Assembly: GCF_001424585.1 (NCBI RefSeq)
Contig: NZ_LMPJ01000001.1
Location: 278,442 to 342,441 of the forward strand
Direction of reading: 5' to 3'
Length of the DNA stretch: 64,000 nt
Source of the DNA: Chryseobacterium sp. Leaf180
GTDB taxonomy: Bacteria; Bacteroidota; Bacteroidia; Flavobacteriales; Weeksellaceae
The translations under genes were made by a program, and so were the position numbers. Each line of letters starts with the position of its first letter. Within the stretch, counting starts at the first letter, position 1. The notes beneath the pieces were generated by a model, which was given only the letters and a program-made list of their open reading frames with translations, made no database searches and was not told where the DNA came from. This document shows positions 1 through 37,521 of this stretch, piece by piece.

Positions 1-350
1 TCTGTCGGACGCTCGTGTGAAGGAAGCAAAACCGTTTTTGGCAAAGGAATCCCGAGTTTGCTCATTAGAGCATTATTAAAAAACTTTTCGTCAGCGCTCC
101 ACCAGAAAGGATTATTAATCACATACGTTCCGTTCAGCGCAGCATTCTTAAGATATGCTCTGTAGAAAGGAACATCCTGCGAAATTCTATCAATAATCAC
201 AGCATAGCCATAATCTGCACCTTGCTCAAGCTTGTCGATTGTCACCGGTTCAGCTATGATCTCACCTTTTCCCAATTCATTTACTTTATCGATAAAAGCC
301 CACGGAAACGTGTCTTCCATACCAAATAAAATACCTACTTTCTTTGCCAT
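1..350 (-). CDS. ATP-grasp-type protein, N-terminal part (runs off window)
   Basis: The first 116 codons of a minus-strand gene are visible; the rest lies beyond the left edge. The start is the ATG at 350-348 and the protein begins MAKKVGILFGMEDTFPW. It contains a segment VIIDRISQDVPFYRAYLK (about residues 51-68), then INNPFWWSADEKFF and LGIPLPKTVLLP. The last two look like the pre-ATP-grasp region of an ATP-dependent ligase, where a substrate domain leads into the nucleotide-binding fold. From memory this N-terminus belongs to a widespread, uncharacterised family whose C-terminal half is an ATP-grasp domain, but that half is not in the window. It follows the esterase gene by 31 nt on the same strand and looks like the last visible gene of a five-gene operon that also holds a second ATP-grasp enzyme. 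Confidence 0.6.
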   Translation of the reverse strand, partial: MAKKVGILFGMEDTFPWAFIDKVNELGKGEIIAEPVTIDKLEQGADYGYAVIIDRISQDVPFYRAYLKNAALNGTYVINNPFWWSADEKFFNNALMSKLGIPLPKTVLLPSHERPT

Positions 351-381
351 AATTTATTTTTATCAGTTGTTTAATATAGTT

Positions 382-1095
382 TTAAGAGAAAAATTCACCT
401 ATAAATTTCGGGAAAACCATACGCCAGAGAGGCCAGTCATGATTAATCCATTTCTGCTCGTCGTACCAGAAATTGATTCCTCTGGAAGTAAGAATCTGAG
501 CCATTTCAAGATTTTTGTCCCGGCAGATATCTTCATCTGAAGTGCTCAGAACGATGTGCATATGATTGTATTTCCAGGGAGCATCGTTTTTCACAAATTC
601 GCGCGGACAATTAAAATAAACCAGATCGTCACTGTAGCCATCCATAAAATTACGGATGCTGAACGCACCGGAAAGCGCAAAAAGATGCGAAACCACACCA
701 GGAAATCTAAAAGCAAAATTAGCTGCATGATAACCTCCAAAACTCGCTCCTGCTACGGCCACGCGCTCAGTCTGATGTATTTTCTGAATGTACGGAATAA
801 ACTCGCGAATGAGAAACTGTACATATTTCTCGTAATTTCTGATGCGCTGTTGAGGCGAAATACTATTATCGTAAAAACTCCAGCCATCTATCGTTTCGAT
901 ATTATAAAGTTTCACTTTTCCGCTATTTACAAACCAGTCGATGCTGCTGTTCAGGTGAAAATCGTGATTTTGAGTATACGATCCCTGCGAGGTCGGAAAC
1001 ATGATGATCGGATGACCGTAATGGCCGGTGATTTCCACTTTCAAACTCGTCTGTAAGATGTGCGAATAGTAATCTGTATGCTGAATCTGCGGCAT
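382..1095 (-). CDS. Alpha/beta-hydrolase esterase
   Basis: A 237-residue cytoplasmic protein with no signal peptide, related to the esterase D / enterochelin esterase-like group. The nucleophile elbow GASFGG places the catalytic serine at residue 118. The loop STSDEDIC (about 184-191) can supply the acid, and NHDWPLW supplies a histidine at 219, so the triad looks complete. The natural substrate cannot be read from sequence. It sits 21 nt downstream of an ATP-grasp gene and 31 nt upstream of another ATP-grasp-like gene, all on the minus strand, so it probably acts on the product or an intermediate of those ligases. It is much shorter than the second esterase of the operon and lacks its carbohydrate-binding-like N-terminus. 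Confidence 0.8.
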   Translation of the reverse strand: MPQIQHTDYYSHILQTSLKVEITGHYGHPIIMFPTSQGSYTQNHDFHLNSSIDWFVNSGKVKLYNIETIDGWSFYDNSISPQQRIRNYEKYVQFLIREFIPYIQKIHQTERVAVAGASFGGYHAANFAFRFPGVVSHLFALSGAFSIRNFMDGYSDDLVYFNCPREFVKNDAPWKYNHMHIVLSTSDEDICRDKNLEMAQILTSRGINFWYDEQKWINHDWPLWRMVFPKFIGEFFS

Positions 1096-1116
1096 ATTTT
1101 CGTTTTTAAAAGTGAT

Positions 1117-2328
1117 TTAGGATGTTGGTTTTTCTGTTGGCGGAATGATGCTTAACAGTTCATTCTGAATAATTTCTGCTGCTTCATTCAGCCGTTTTTC
1201 GACTATTTTTTCATCTTTGGATTTATAGACAATTCCTGCATGATAATCTATCGGAAGAAATTTGACGGCTTCCTCACATTCAAACAGACTGTTTTCTGGC
1301 GATTTATGTTTAATTAACGCAATGATCAACCCAGCAAAATAGGCCGTCGATTTTGGAATTTTATATGCAGTATTTCTTAGAATGGCATCTTCGATTTTAG
1401 CCCATTCGCGCCAGATATTAATGTTGCTGCTGGCCTCAATAAGGTCAGGAATATGAGCACCGCCAACACGCGAAGAAGTTTCAAGGAAATAAAATTTTCC
1501 GTCATCTTTACTTCGGATAAATTCGGTGTGTGTTGCGCCGTTTACAAGTTTAAATCTTTCGATCACCTGCTTATTGGCCTTGTCTAAAGCTTTGTATTCA
1601 TCAGAATTCCGGCTTAAAGTTTTTGTTCTGAAAACGCCACCTTCATGCGAAACCTGCATTGGCGGAGCCAGATATCTTGATGCAGAGGTGAAGACGATTT
1701 TTTCTCTAAAAGTGAGACTGTCTACATGATATACATCTCCTGGTTTGAAGCTTTCAAGAAGAAATAGATGTCTTTCCTCACCAAGTTTATGAATGGCTTC
1801 CCAAAGATGTTCTTTGTTAGTTAACTTTTTAATTCCTGAAGCAGAGGCTTCAGAACGCGGTTTTAAAACCCAGGGAGGAAAAATGCGTTCAGCAAAATCG
1901 TTAACAGCTTCATCATTAAATATCGCAGTAAATTCTGGAACGAGAATTCCTTCATCCAATGCTTTCTGACGCATCGCCAGTTTATCACGAAAATATCTGT
2001 GTGTTGTCTGTCCCATGCCGGGAATACGGAAAACCTCACGAATCATCGCTGCTTTTTCAACATCATAATCGTCGAGCGCAATGACTGCGTCAATTTTCTG
2101 TGACCTCATCAGGTGAGAAAATCCCTGCGTAAGATGATCGAGATTCCAGACCGAAGATTTTACTTCAGGCATGTAATATACTTCATCGATAGCGTGCCAA
2201 GGCCAGTTTTTATCTTTTAGATTTTCAGATGTGATGAGAATAATTCTGTTGCCCAGTTTTTTACTTTCATCCATAAAATCATAGCCTTTGAAGTAACATG
2301 ACAGGCAGACTAGCGTTTTCCCCTCCAT
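1117..2328 (-). CDS. ATP-grasp domain protein (putative carboxylate-amine ligase)
   Basis: A 403-residue ATP-grasp enzyme of the carbamoyl-phosphate synthase/biotin carboxylase-like type. The N-terminal domain (about 1-110) has a nucleotide-fold start TLVCLSCYF and an IDAVIALDDYDVE segment. The central ATP-binding lobe contains PWVLKPRSEASASG (about 152-165). The metal-binding motif is in THTEFIRS...YFLETSSRVGG, with the paired Glu residues expected for Mg-ATP. Such enzymes join a carboxylate to an amine through an acyl-phosphate; the substrate is unknown here. The gene lies 141 nt downstream of the M17 peptidase gene and 21 nt upstream of an esterase. No good promoter or terminator was found in the 141-nt gap, so co-transcription is likely. 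Confidence 0.8.
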   Translation of the reverse strand: MEGKTLVCLSCYFKGYDFMDESKKLGNRIILITSENLKDKNWPWHAIDEVYYMPEVKSSVWNLDHLTQGFSHLMRSQKIDAVIALDDYDVEKAAMIREVFRIPGMGQTTHRYFRDKLAMRQKALDEGILVPEFTAIFNDEAVNDFAERIFPPWVLKPRSEASASGIKKLTNKEHLWEAIHKLGEERHLFLLESFKPGDVYHVDSLTFREKIVFTSASRYLAPPMQVSHEGGVFRTKTLSRNSDEYKALDKANKQVIERFKLVNGATHTEFIRSKDDGKFYFLETSSRVGGAHIPDLIEASSNINIWREWAKIEDAILRNTAYKIPKSTAYFAGLIIALIKHKSPENSLFECEEAVKFLPIDYHAGIVYKSKDEKIVEKRLNEAAEIIQNELLSIIPPTEKPTS

Positions 2329-2469
2329 ACAATGATTTTTAGTTTTTGGTGGATTAGTCTTAAATGATAAACATTAAGATTAATAAATTCACATCAAATT
2401 GCATCCACATGGTTCATTAAATGAAATTGACTATCAATGATACAGAGAAATTTCGGAAAAAACTAATTT

Positions 2470-3882
2470 TTACAGATAATTTTGCATTAAATCAATCAAA
2501 AGCTGAACGCCATATCCGGTCGCCGCTTTTTCTTTTGAATAATCAACATTTCCGAAGGCTACACCAGCAATATCAAGGTGCGCCCAGTTTGGATGATCAC
2601 CGATAAACTGCTCTAAAAATTTCGCAGCCACGATGCAGTCGCCAATCGGTTTTGAAGAGATGTTTTTGAAGTCTGCAACATTAGAAGTAAAGTCTTCTTT
2701 CCAGATGTCCCATAGCGGTAAATTCCATACACGTTGCCCGGTCTTGTCACCGGAAAAAATAATAGAATCGCGCAAAGAACTGTTATTTGAAAACATGGCA
2801 GCACACGTGTCGCCAAACATCCGCACAGCGCTTCCTGTAAGCGTTGCAAGGTCGATTAAAACTTCAGTTTCATGATTTTTTGACAGATATGCAAGTGCAT
2901 CTGCCATCGTCATTCTGCCTTCGGCATCCGTATTTAAAACTTCAATCGTTTTGCCGTTGTATGCTTTTACTACATCGCTCGGCAGATACGATTTTTCTGA
3001 AACTGCATTGTCTGTAATAGGTAAAATCGCAACAATATTTACCGGAAATTTCATTTTTGAAGCATATGCAAGTGCACCCAAAACCGCTGTTGCACCGCCC
3101 ATGTCAGACTTCATATAATGCATATTTTCCGAACCTTTAATGGAAATCCCGCCGGTATCAAATGTCACGCATTTCCCGATAAGTCCAATGGTTTTTGCGT
3201 TTTTATTTTCAGAATTATATTCCAGAATCGTAAATGCCGCTTCATAATGACTACCCTGATTCACGGCGAGATAAGCGCTCAAACCAAGCTCTTCGCATTT
3301 CTGTCTGTTGAAAACTGTATGTTTTAAATTATTTTCCGCTGAAAAATCTTTCAGAAAGTTTGAAAGAATATCCGGGTTTTTAAAATTTGCAGGTTTGTTG
3401 AGCCATTCCTGGCAGAGCGACTGTGCATCGAGCAATGCAGAAGCTTCCTGATGAGTTGCTGTTTCCGAAATGTTCTCGGCTTTATAATAAAGTGAAAATT
3501 CGCTTTTTAAGACCGGATGATCTTTTTTAAAAGGATATTCATATGTTCCAAGAAATAATCCTTTATAGAAACTGCCAAACTGATTTTCGCTTAAATCTTC
3601 GGCATTAAAAACAGTTTTATCTGCAAGAATATTTTTTCGGTAGTGATGCGAAAACTTCATCGCGATGCGCTGCAGTTCATGATCAGGAATATTTTTTTTT
3701 CCGATTCCAATGAGAAAATTAACGCTTCCTTCTTTTATATCGACAAAAAATTCACTTTTCTTTCCGGAAAAGAAACCGCTTATTGGTTCACCGAATTTCT
3801 GTTTATTACTGTTCCAGCTTTCCTCAGAAAAAACATGGAAAGTCTGAGGAAACTGGCTGTATTGCGTTTCAGGTTGATTCAT
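2470..3882 (-). CDS. M17 family leucyl aminopeptidase
   Basis: A 470-residue M17 metallo-aminopeptidase that would remove N-terminal residues from peptides in the cytoplasm using two metal ions. The C-terminal catalytic half is well conserved. Residues K237, D242, K249, D260, D319, E321 and R323 sit in GKCVTFDTGG, MKSDMGG and NTDAEGR, and each aligns with the E. coli PepA metal or catalytic residues at a constant offset of 33. The N-terminal 160 residues are divergent, as usual for the family. It begins 6 nt after the stop of the upstream CBM-esterase gene, so the two are translated from one mRNA. Its presence between two ligase genes and two esterase genes suggests an amide-bonded substrate made or recycled by this operon; that is inference. 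Confidence 0.9.
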   Translation of the reverse strand: MNQPETQYSQFPQTFHVFSEESWNSNKQKFGEPISGFFSGKKSEFFVDIKEGSVNFLIGIGKKNIPDHELQRIAMKFSHHYRKNILADKTVFNAEDLSENQFGSFYKGLFLGTYEYPFKKDHPVLKSEFSLYYKAENISETATHQEASALLDAQSLCQEWLNKPANFKNPDILSNFLKDFSAENNLKHTVFNRQKCEELGLSAYLAVNQGSHYEAAFTILEYNSENKNAKTIGLIGKCVTFDTGGISIKGSENMHYMKSDMGGATAVLGALAYASKMKFPVNIVAILPITDNAVSEKSYLPSDVVKAYNGKTIEVLNTDAEGRMTMADALAYLSKNHETEVLIDLATLTGSAVRMFGDTCAAMFSNNSSLRDSIIFSGDKTGQRVWNLPLWDIWKEDFTSNVADFKNISSKPIGDCIVAAKFLEQFIGDHPNWAHLDIAGVAFGNVDYSKEKAATGYGVQLLIDLMQNYL

Positions 3883-3888
3883 ATATAT

Positions 3889-5031
3889 TTATTGATTGAT
3901 GGTTTGTGTTGGTTTTACTTCCACAGGATTTTCGGTGTTGTTGTAAAAAAGCCATTCGATCGCGCGCGGAAATTCCTGCGACCAGTAATGCTCATTGTGT
4001 GTACCGTCTGGGTTAATGTGCGTGCGAACTTCAAACGAAAACCTGTTCATGCGTTCCCATTCTTTCAGATAATTTTCAAAAACGCCGATTCTTTTAACCA
4101 TTTTTGCGCCTTCCTTTTCGCCTCCGTAGAGATATATTTTAGTTTTAAATGGATTTCGGAAACTCATCATTGGAAAATTATTATCCGGTTCGACCCAAAG
4201 TGATGGTGAGAAAATCAATAGTTTTGAATAAACTTCGGGATAAAGAAAACCGCTGTAAATGCTGATTAAAGCACCAAGCGAACTTCCGCCAATTCCTGTA
4301 TTTTCTCGGTCTTTTTTTGTTCTGAAATGAAGATCAACGTAAGGTTTGAGAGTGTCGGTTAGAAATCGGATGTATTTTTTACCTTCAGAACCGTTTGCTA
4401 CGTGATCATTGTCAAAAATGTACTCCCGGATTCGGTCTTCGCTGCCATGTTCCACTGCAATTACAATAATGTCGCCACGACCGTATTCTGCAAGAAGTGC
4501 CAGTTTCCGGTCAATTTCCCAGTTGCCAAAATCACTTCCGTCCTGAAAAAGATTTTGCGCATCGTGCAGATACAGCACAGGATATTTCTTGTCTGATGTA
4601 TGATAATCATAGGGTAGAAGTGCCCATATTTTTCGGTGCCTGTCAAGTTGTGGAATATAAAATTCTTCCGCAATAATCTCGGTAATCGGAAAAAATTCTT
4701 CTTTGAAAGGTCCCCAGTTCAGACGCCATCTTTCAACGAAATCAAAAATTGGTTCTGCATTTTTCTGCATTTTTCTGTTCGGGGTGATATTTCCTGCGAT
4801 GTCTAGTTCCACATTTTCCCAGCCGCCTTTCGTGAATTTGTATTCGATAAGATCTGGGAGAACTTCGTCGGCGATTTCTATTTGAAAAGTTTCTCCGTCG
4901 GTTTTTTCCAGCTGAAAATCAGCGTTTTTTGGATTCCAGGCATTAAAATTTCCCGTAATGTAGACAGGTCGTGCATCATCTTCAGCAGTTTTTACGGTAA
5001 ATTTCATATTGTTTGCTTGCCGTATAGGCAT
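3889..5031 (-). CDS. Esterase with N-terminal CBM48/E-set-like domain
   Basis: A 380-residue protein. Residues about 10-100 resemble an E-set glycogen-binding (CBM48/CBM20-like) domain, with VYITGNFNAWNP followed by a beta-rich stretch. Residues 115-370 form an enterochelin-esterase-like alpha/beta hydrolase with nucleophile motif GGSSLG (Ser251) and a catalytic His in GTHNEHYW (about H345). No signal peptide is seen. It is the first gene of the minus-strand operon and is read from a clear promoter at 5066-5095. ATG codons exist at 5031 and at 5007 (residue 9, which would give MKFTVK); both lie downstream of the predicted transcript start, so the choice stays open. The carbohydrate-binding-like domain and the divergent glgBAC operon suggest a link to glycogen or another glucan. 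Confidence 0.75.
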   Translation of the reverse strand: MPIRQANNMKFTVKTAEDDARPVYITGNFNAWNPKNADFQLEKTDGETFQIEIADEVLPDLIEYKFTKGGWENVELDIAGNITPNRKMQKNAEPIFDFVERWRLNWGPFKEEFFPITEIIAEEFYIPQLDRHRKIWALLPYDYHTSDKKYPVLYLHDAQNLFQDGSDFGNWEIDRKLALLAEYGRGDIIVIAVEHGSEDRIREYIFDNDHVANGSEGKKYIRFLTDTLKPYVDLHFRTKKDRENTGIGGSSLGALISIYSGFLYPEVYSKLLIFSPSLWVEPDNNFPMMSFRNPFKTKIYLYGGEKEGAKMVKRIGVFENYLKEWERMNRFSFEVRTHINPDGTHNEHYWSQEFPRAIEWLFYNNTENPVEVKPTQTINQ

Positions 5032-5065: not shown

Positions 5066-5095
5066 CAAAATTAACAAAAACCATGCGTTTTACAA
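5066..5095 (-). promoter_or_regulatory. Promoter of the esterase/M17/ATP-grasp operon
   Basis: On the minus strand TTG (5095-5093) is followed by a 19-nt spacer and TAATTTTG (5073-5066), an exact match to the Bacteroidota consensus TTG-N19-TAnnTTTG. The transcript would begin near 5060, about 28 nt before the ATG at 5031. Confidence 0.75.
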
Positions 5096-36369: not shown

Positions 36370-37521
36370 ATGGCAATTGAAACGTGGGAAAATTTAGTTA
36401 AAAAACAGCTGAAAACTGATGATATTTATTCAGTTTTAAGCAAGCCAAATCTGGAAGGAATTAAGGTAAAACCTTTCTACGATTCTTTAAAGAAAAAACT
36501 TCCCGTTTTGCCAAGATCTGAGGAAAGTACACATTTGGTTTCTCATTATCACGAAAGTCTTGAGGACGATGTTTATGCTTTTTTGCTGACAGAAAATGTT
36601 GAAAATCTCAGTGAAAAATCAATTTTTGTCGATGATCTGAAGTTGGCAGAACATATTTCACTTGAAGATACCAACCGTTATTTTTCTCTCATCGATGTTT
36701 TTTCTGCGGATGAATCTCAGATTGAGGATCAGTTGGTAAAAGAATTACAGGCAAAAAACTTTGAGAAATCGATCTGTGTAAATATTTCTTTACATCAAAA
36801 CGCCGGCGCGTCTATCATCCAGCAGATGGCTTTTGCTCTGGCAAAAACCAAGGAATTGTGTGAAATTTACGGCGGGGAGATTTTAGATAAACTTATTTTT
36901 CGTGTGGCAATAGGAGCAAATTATTTCTTTGAAATCGCGAAAATCCGCGCTCTGAAAATTTTGTTTAATCAGCTGTCAAAAGAATATCATTTAGATCTTG
37001 TTCCATATATTTTTGCTGAAACTTCATTCAGAAATAAGTCTGTAAACGACAGCGAAAATAATCTTATCCGGTCAACACTTGAGCTTGCGGCAGCCATGAT
37101 TGGTGGTGCAGATGCTGTTTTTAGTAATGATTATTCGATTGGCATAACTTCTGCGAATACAGCTGAAATCTCTTTTAAACAGCAGATCGTTCTCGCCTAT
37201 GAAAGCATCATTAACGTTTTTGAAGATGCGGCCAATGGAAGTTATTTTGTGGAGGACATTACCGAACAGATCGCACAAAAATCTTGGCAGGAATTTCTAA
37301 AGATTGAAGAAAATGGAGGTTATCTGAAAAATATTGAGAATGGAAACATTCAAAAGATGATTTATAATCACGCAACTGAGGAACAGAGGTGGGTTGAAGA
37401 GGGAAAGATCAAACTTATTGGCGTCAATCTATATCCTAAACTGGATGTGAAAAAAAATATTTCAGAGCTTTATGATGAGAAAATAATCAAAGCGGTGCAT
37501 TGGGCAGAAATGTTTGAATAA
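36370..37521 (+). CDS. mutA: Methylmalonyl-CoA mutase small (beta) subunit
   Basis: A 383-residue subunit that pairs with the catalytic large subunit to interconvert methylmalonyl-CoA and succinyl-CoA. It starts MAIETWENLVKKQL and contains VNISLHQNAGASIIQQMAFALA, quoted for the SLHQNAGA motif, and a TIM-barrel pattern. The C-terminal cobalamin-binding domain is absent, as expected for this subunit. The large subunit is usually next door; here the next gene is a methyltransferase that starts immediately after the stop codon, so the partner must be elsewhere. Confidence 0.9.
   Translation: MAIETWENLVKKQLKTDDIYSVLSKPNLEGIKVKPFYDSLKKKLPVLPRSEESTHLVSHYHESLEDDVYAFLLTENVENLSEKSIFVDDLKLAEHISLEDTNRYFSLIDVFSADESQIEDQLVKELQAKNFEKSICVNISLHQNAGASIIQQMAFALAKTKELCEIYGGEILDKLIFRVAIGANYFFEIAKIRALKILFNQLSKEYHLDLVPYIFAETSFRNKSVNDSENNLIRSTLELAAAMIGGADAVFSNDYSIGITSANTAEISFKQQIVLAYESIINVFEDAANGSYFVEDITEQIAQKSWQEFLKIEENGGYLKNIENGNIQKMIYNHATEEQRWVEEGKIKLIGVNLYPKLDVKKNISELYDEKIIKAVHWAEMFE

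Follow-up and report, generated by a model that had tools for sequence, protein, structure and literature searches.

The systems closest to the one described here are the glutathionylspermidine synthetase (GspS)/amidase and trypanothione synthetase pathways. The Escherichia coli proteins YgiC and YjfC, peptide-spermidine ligases, share the fold of GspS and are termed bacterial peptidylpolyamine synthetases in the available text of PMC12568646 (citing Pederick 2023), which also covers Cp1B, a ligase of the fungal E-64 pathway. Other points of comparison are the ligases RimK and LysX/ArgX, the L-amino acid ligases (4wd3, BL00235, BacD) and the cyanophycin clusters (PMC10206079). We analysed a stretch of 64,000 nucleotides from Chryseobacterium sp. 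Leaf180 (contig NZ_LMPJ01000001.1, positions 278,442 to 342,441; hereafter the window). Its left edge cuts a run of eight minus-strand genes, five of them (partly) inside the window, which encodes ligase-like and hydrolase-like proteins. With moderate confidence, we propose that this run specifies a non-ribosomal, operon-encoded pathway in which several ligases build a small peptide and dedicated hydrolases act alongside them. The genes and their neighbours are given below under our own names, in window positions or, for those to the left of it, in positions of L002, a stretch of 20 kb reaching left of the window (window position = L002 position - 10000).

Est380, 3889-5031, minus strand: first gene of the run; esterase-fold protein (PF00756) of 380 residues, GxSxG present
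M17, 2470-3882, minus strand: leucyl-aminopeptidase-type protein of 470 residues (Pfam Peptidase_M17)
AG403, 1117-2328, minus strand: ATP-grasp protein of the L-amino-acid-ligase kind, 403 residues
Est237, 382-1095, minus strand: small alpha/beta-hydrolase (PF00756); core gene
AG319, 1-350 in the window (N-terminal part), whole gene L002:9391-10350, minus strand: RimK-like ATP-grasp protein of 319 residues
GCS2, L002:8254-9372, minus strand: YbdK-type carboxylate-amine ligase; left of the window
GAT, L002:7396-8223, minus strand: enzyme with a class-I glutamine amidotransferase (GATase) fold; left of the window
X393, L002:6195-7376, minus strand: last gene of the run; YgiC/YjfC/GspS-like fold predicted from a relative's model; left of the window
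cphA, L002:3516-6146, plus strand: cyanophycin synthetase, convergent with the run
cphB, L002:2435-3328, minus strand: cyanophycinase
Isoaspartyl-peptidase/Asparaginase_2 homologue, L002:1571-2413, minus strand: follows cphB
Possible promoter, 5066-5095, minus strand: fits TTG-N19-TANNTTTG exactly; lies upstream of Est380 and is not conserved among relatives

The intergenic gaps along the run, from Est380 to X393, are 6, 141, 21, 31, 18, 30 and 19 bp, the longest lying between M17 and AG403. From this spacing, the eight genes are likely to form one transcript. An earlier reading of the window from its letters alone (the sequence-only reading) had described an operon of five minus-strand genes. 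All five are present at the coordinates and with the families then claimed, as judged by open reading frames, by Pfam for four of them and by a relative's model for AG319. The operon itself stands in so far as the genes and their tight spacing are concerned, but it has eight genes and its single transcript is read from the spacing. That reading had also taken the protein cut by the left edge for an ATP-grasp protein. The sequence beyond the edge yields a complete protein of 319 residues, and the model predicted for a relative with 91% identity resembles RimK, which bears this assignment out. The promoter fared less well. It is a possible one: the match to a Bacteroidetes-type consensus is exact, but TTG-N17to23-TANNTTTG occurs 21 times when the two strands of the window are taken together, and a scan ahead of Est380 in 16 relatives found no match in 15 of them. 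A scan of L002 against Rfam gave no match at the gathering threshold.

We compared gene order around AG319 in two sets of loci. The first comes from a phylum-wide draw of 198 Bacteroidota genomes (AG319 threshold E <= 1e-10), in which the surroundings of 60 AG319 loci were compared besides the locus of Leaf180 itself, with 11 AG319 genomes left out. The second comprises named loci, the 80 best-scoring of at least 578 AG319 relatives; it is biased to close relatives and includes some short contigs. Genes were counted as near AG319 when on the same strand and within 6 kb. Among the 60 loci of the phylum-wide draw, we found Est237 near AG319 in 29, GCS2 in 31, GAT in 30, X393 in 28, a circularly permuted ATP-grasp protein (CP-ATP-grasp) in 10, AG403 in five, and M17 and Est380 in two each. 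The corresponding counts for the 80 named loci are 77 (Est237), 77 (GCS2), 73 (GAT), 72 (X393), 23 (AG403), 21 (M17) and 17 (Est380). Hence, the recurrent core is Est237-AG319-GCS2-GAT-X393, and M17-AG403 is an add-on. Since the gene order recurs in other genomes, the run is more than a chance arrangement. The sequence-only reading expected its five families to co-occur: this holds for Est237 and AG319, but Est380, M17 and AG403 lie outside the core, and its other members, GCS2, GAT and X393, are left of the window.

The complete arrangement has a narrower range. Est380-M17-AG403 and the core form one run in 17 of the 80 named loci, all from close relatives (Chryseobacterium records, Elizabethkingia, Epilithonimonas, Soonwooa, Halpernia, Cruoricaptor and one record titled Flavobacteriaceae), as well as in the Leaf180 locus and in two loci of its own genus (L033, L034). 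The same arrangement without Est380 is seen in three loci of Kaistella and on one short contig of Chryseobacterium (L100). M17 and AG403 also stand beside the core, or face it, in Flavobacterium (L153 and L169, with Est380), Winogradskyella (L152), Subsaximicrobium (L161) and two metagenome-assembled genomes of Saprospiraceae (L145, L155). Other neighbours that recur, among them some read by eye as sigma factors and ABC ATPases, gave no impression of specificity.

Genome-wide co-occurrence agrees with the gene order. We searched the 198 genomes at E <= 1e-20 for X393, 1e-40 for AG403, GAT and Est237 and 1e-100 for CphA, while GCS2 was searched in 20 chosen genomes at E <= 1e-30. AG319 is present in 72 of the 198 genomes. 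It accompanies X393 in 58 of 60 genomes, AG403 in 43 of 43, GAT in 49 of 50 and Est237 in 70 of 81. Fourteen AG319 genomes lack X393, and in 11 of them CP-ATP-grasp adjoins AG319. CP-ATP-grasp matches PDB entry 3n6x, a putative glutathionylspermidine synthase (E 1.5e-7 in a profile search), and occurs in 12 genomes, all with AG319 and 11 without X393. The single genome with both X393 and CP-ATP-grasp (G137) has a more distant match to CP-ATP-grasp (E 6.6e-105), and the three remaining genomes without X393 (G007, G087, G160) have AG319 matches at only 33-40% identity. Given this pattern, one ligase of the GspS superfamily seems to stand in for another. When X393 and CP-ATP-grasp are aligned by profile, they show no clear relationship (probability 2%); what links them is that each separately matches that superfamily. 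A hydrolase varies in a similar position. An M29-type metallopeptidase (assigned by a Pfam scan of the L058 protein only) lies between GCS2 and X393 at L058:11665-12693 (genome G093) and L070:7306-8325 (genome G055); these genomes belong to different families, and neither has a match to GAT anywhere.

What could the ligases of the run do? GCS2 scores 536.3 bits against NF010039 (cut-off 371) and 309.7 bits against TIGR02050 (cut-off 176.4), which identifies it as a YbdK-type carboxylate-amine ligase. AG319 has no Pfam match at E <= 0.01, and against the rimK_fam hidden Markov model (TIGR00768) it reaches E 2.1e-8 and 33.9 bits, well below the cut-off of 143.4. Its relative in L093 (the 91% identical one) has a predicted model (pLDDT 86.6) whose best structural matches are RimK (Z 20.9 over 264 residues at 3.0 A) and LysX/ArgX (Z about 20). 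Lys, Glu, Asp and Asn residues have a role in ATP-grasp enzymes, and K146, E251, D263 and N266 of AG319 are invariant in all 35 aligned sequences; fold and residues together identify it as an ATP-grasp protein. Its best named relatives, among the 80 best-scoring, come from Chryseobacterium, Kaistella, Elizabethkingia, Epilithonimonas and similar genera. AG403 is only weakly alignable to AG319 by profile (probability 11%). It narrowly passes the Pfam cut-off for ATP-grasp_4 (27.5 bits against 27), and its profile best matches in PDB an L-amino acid ligase, 4wd3 (E 5.4e-24), which we take to be the arginine-specific ligase RizA. E283, R287, G289 and G290 are invariant in 21 of 21 aligned sequences; this E..RxGG region is shared with 4wd3, BL00235 and BacD, although these are distant. 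By homology, AG403 is thus a putative alpha-dipeptide ligase.

X393 has a weak sequence match to YgiC (E 0.0043). The predicted model of its relative in L096 (pLDDT 90.5) has the fold of the GspS/eukaryotic glutathione synthetase superfamily: the best match is YgiC (Z 25.2, 339 residues aligned, 3.5 A), followed by YjfC (Z 24.6), GspS (Z 24.5) and homoglutathione synthetase (Z 24.1). The model also matches Cp1B (Z 21.8) and trypanothione synthetase (Z 21.3). Cp1B is also a ligase of a small-molecule pathway but, as far as the available text of PMC12568646 goes, that pathway is fungal and different, and the likeness is one of fold seen through the relative's model. At L173:7996-10599, X393 lies in a single open frame (867 residues) with an N-terminal part that by eye resembles a sodium symporter, which may be a fusion or a shared frame. 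Away from the core, proteins that look amidohydrolase-like by eye adjoin X393 in five of the 20 fetched loci (L182:7942-9411; L175, L180, L183, L184), and another such protein, also by eye, lies between GCS2 and GAT at L054:6733-8562.

The hydrolases also retain their catalytic-type residues. Pfam assigns both Est380 and Est237 to Esterase (PF00756), and S118 and H219 of Est237 are invariant in 15 of 15 aligned sequences. The usual metal and catalytic motifs of the M17 family are readable in M17, and homologues were found in 17 of 20 relatives. GAT scores 34.1 bits against PF00117 (cut-off 22.8), placing it in the class-I glutamine amidotransferase fold, and its Cys-His-Glu triad (C104, H207, E209) is invariant in 17 of 17 aligned sequences. 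The sequence-only reading had called the N-terminus of Est380 CBM48-like. This is plausible, since two PDB matches are titled 'Isoamylase N-terminal domain protein', but the matches begin at residue 120 or beyond, and the N-terminal residues (about 110) have no Pfam match at E <= 0.01.

From the gene order, the conservation, the conserved catalytic-type residues, the predicted folds of the AG319 and X393 relatives and the co-occurrence, all of which are observed, we infer substrates, an order of reactions, a product and a direction for the hydrolases. The product would most likely be a short gamma-glutamyl-type peptide or peptide-amine, built roughly like glutathione and glutathionylspermidine. 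GCS2 would link the gamma-carboxyl of glutamate to an amine or an amino acid; AG319, being RimK/LysX-like, would add a further residue; and X393 (or CP-ATP-grasp) would attach an amine or an amino acid to the peptide as its cap. AG403 may provide an alpha-dipeptide building block. On the side of hydrolysis, GAT, a Cys-His-Glu enzyme (or the M29 peptidase in some loci), may remove gamma-glutamyl groups, M17 could trim alpha-peptides, and the esterases Est380 and Est237 could remove a protecting or blocking group. That the cap is a polyamine is doubtful. Slightly less doubtful, and still tentative, is a wider claim: that much of the Bacteroidota makes a soluble, amine-capped peptide of gamma-glutamyl type, an analogue of glutathionylspermidine, with two ligases of the GspS superfamily interchanging by lineage and specific hydrolases recycling the product. 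The sequence-only reading had imagined a pathway that makes and recycles an amide-linked compound. Its pairing of amide ligases with hydrolases is strengthened by the ligases left of the window, but the conserved unit is a different one from its five genes, and recycling is a role that the hydrolases may have.

Like the GspS/amidase and trypanothione synthetase pathways, the run combines a gamma-glutamyl ligase, an ATP-grasp step and a capping ligase of GspS fold, and GAT, as a hydrolase with a Cys nucleophile, is a possible counterpart of the GspS amidase. Unlike these, its hydrolase has a class-I GATase fold and not what we take to be the amidase domain of GspS, AG319 is RimK-like, GCS2 is YbdK-type, and there are extra esterases, M17 and AG403. 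All parts belong to known superfamilies. Their combination, its spread and the replacement of one ligase by another were not described in the literature that we searched. The 2009 survey of amidoligase gene neighbourhoods by Iyer and others may have predicted something similar. If our proposal holds, roughly one in three of the sampled Bacteroidota genomes (going by AG319, 72 of 198) has a pathway to a small molecule that we did not find named. Such a pathway, with several ligases of known fold in a new combination, would open direct access to a new metabolite of the cell, of a kind with glutathione conjugates, as well as to new enzymes that form amides.

Several observations weigh against this proposal. 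In about half of the loci from the phylum-wide draw the partners are not close to AG319. GCS2 is absent from 10 of the 20 chosen AG319 genomes, namely all four AG319-bearing genomes of our group f5 (which keep X393), six of the 10 chosen genomes with CP-ATP-grasp and none of the six others. GAT is missing from 23 of the 72 AG319 genomes, and in L055-L057, L062 and L065 it is elsewhere in the genome, away from the AG319 locus. X393 scores 18.7 bits against PF03738 (GSP_synth, glutathionylspermidine synthase), below the cut-off of 29.3. Its identity to YgiC, YjfC and GspS is only 10-14% (14% for the E. coli proteins, about 10% for GspS), and a fold common to these proteins does not show function. 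It is important to highlight that the P values for co-occurrence, including the one for CphA given below, count related genomes as independent. Finally, bshC, of bacillithiol synthesis, is present in 196 of the 198 genomes, Leaf180 included. There is thus no thiol gap to fill, and the product need not be a thiol; for the same reason, we rejected a replacement for missing bacillithiol as the function. In Leaf180, no glutathione synthetase (TIGR01380) scores above the cut-off; the sole match (E 8.3e-4) falls within cphA, and the search did not extend to gshA or gshF.

An unlikely alternative is that the run is an accessory operon of cyanophycin metabolism, whose ligases modify cyanophycin or provide a primer and whose hydrolases take part in its breakdown. 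The neighbourhood in Leaf180 speaks for it: X393 ends 48 bp from the convergent cphA (1261 bits, cut-off 850), beyond which lie cphB (225 bits, cut-off 126.6) and the Asparaginase_2/isoaspartyl-peptidase homologue, and the best PDB match of AG403 is 4wd3, presumably RizA. The distance between CphA and AG319 is also at most 9 kb in 10 of the 80 named loci, nine from Chryseobacterium records and one from Halpernia humi, and in two of the 60 from the phylum-wide draw, both of the same genus as Leaf180, while four Hymenobacter loci (L156, L159, L163, L168) have CphB and IaaA homologues in the flank. Yet cphA is transcribed opposite to the run, and 70 of the 80 named and 58 of the 60 phylum-draw loci yielded no CphA at up to 9 kb, some contigs being short. 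Across the phylum, CphA occurs in 23 of the 198 genomes, 10 of them with AG319 where 8.4 are expected (P 0.30). Co-occurrence at chance level makes the link with cyanophycin local and not general, and we rejected cyanophycin as the general function while retaining it as a rival within this lineage. For the polymer that the sequence-only reading offered as a possible product, these lineage-specific neighbours are the sole pointer.

The cyanophycin genes raise two further points. This lineage shares with known cyanophycin clusters the genes cphA, cphB and a homologue of iaaA, here next to the run, but the main text of PMC10206079, as far as available, does not contain the word 'ligase' and describes no such operon under that name. 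The Asparaginase_2 homologue follows cyanophycinase in eight of the 80 named loci (L093, L094, L096, L098, L099, L110, L111, L120), in addition to L002, L033 and L034. According to the available text of PMC10206079, the isoaspartyl dipeptidase(s) of Bacteroidota are still undiscovered, yet IadA and/or IaaA are found in 22.1% of CphA-bearing Bacteroidota. By its sequence, the protein at L002:1571-2413 is a candidate for such an enzyme. CphB and IaaA homologues occur near the core without CphA in the compared stretch in L045, as well as in the four Hymenobacter loci; the L045 genome (G072) has CphA on another contig.

Equally improbable is that the run modifies proteins, with AG319 working in the manner of RimK or LysX to attach glutamate or some other residue to a carrier or a protein, and GAT and M17 acting as erasers. 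In favour, RimK and LysX/ArgX are the best structural matches of AG319. Against this, X393 resembles enzymes that act on small peptides, and no gene for a carrier or ribosomal protein stood out as a recurrent neighbour in the compared loci among open reading frames of at least 90 residues, most of which were not scanned for family.

We give still less weight to a chance grouping of unrelated housekeeping genes under one promoter. In its favour, only some lineages tie Est380, M17 and the Cph genes to the core, and partners are often apart. Against it, the order of the core is seen repeatedly, X393, GAT and AG403 co-occur with AG319 almost without exception, and another ligase beside AG319 replaces X393 in 11 of the 14 AG319 genomes that lack it. 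Least probable is a glycogen-linked operon, with glycogen or one of its derivatives as the target of Est380 and the genes around it: genes resembling glgB, glgA and glgC (named by eye) diverge from Est380 in Leaf180 and GlgB has a match within 9 kb of AG319 in 14 of the 80 named loci, but 13 of these are close relatives, the fourteenth (L161) is 25% identical, 66 of the 80 named and 58 of the 60 phylum-draw loci have no such match, and no carbohydrate-binding module was detected in Est380 by Pfam or PDB matches.

Two further candidates were set aside. The gap sizes (6-31 bp and one of 141 bp) make a graspetide cluster, of the ribosomally synthesized and post-translationally modified peptides, unlikely; a precursor gene was not searched for. 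As to a viral link, a scan of viral contigs for AG319 only gave two pattern matches, neither of which was confirmed, and five proteins had no match in PHROGs at E <= 1e-5. Elsewhere in the window, positions 36370-37521 encode a short protein (383 residues) of the methylmalonyl-CoA mutase family, which matches only part of the Pfam domain.

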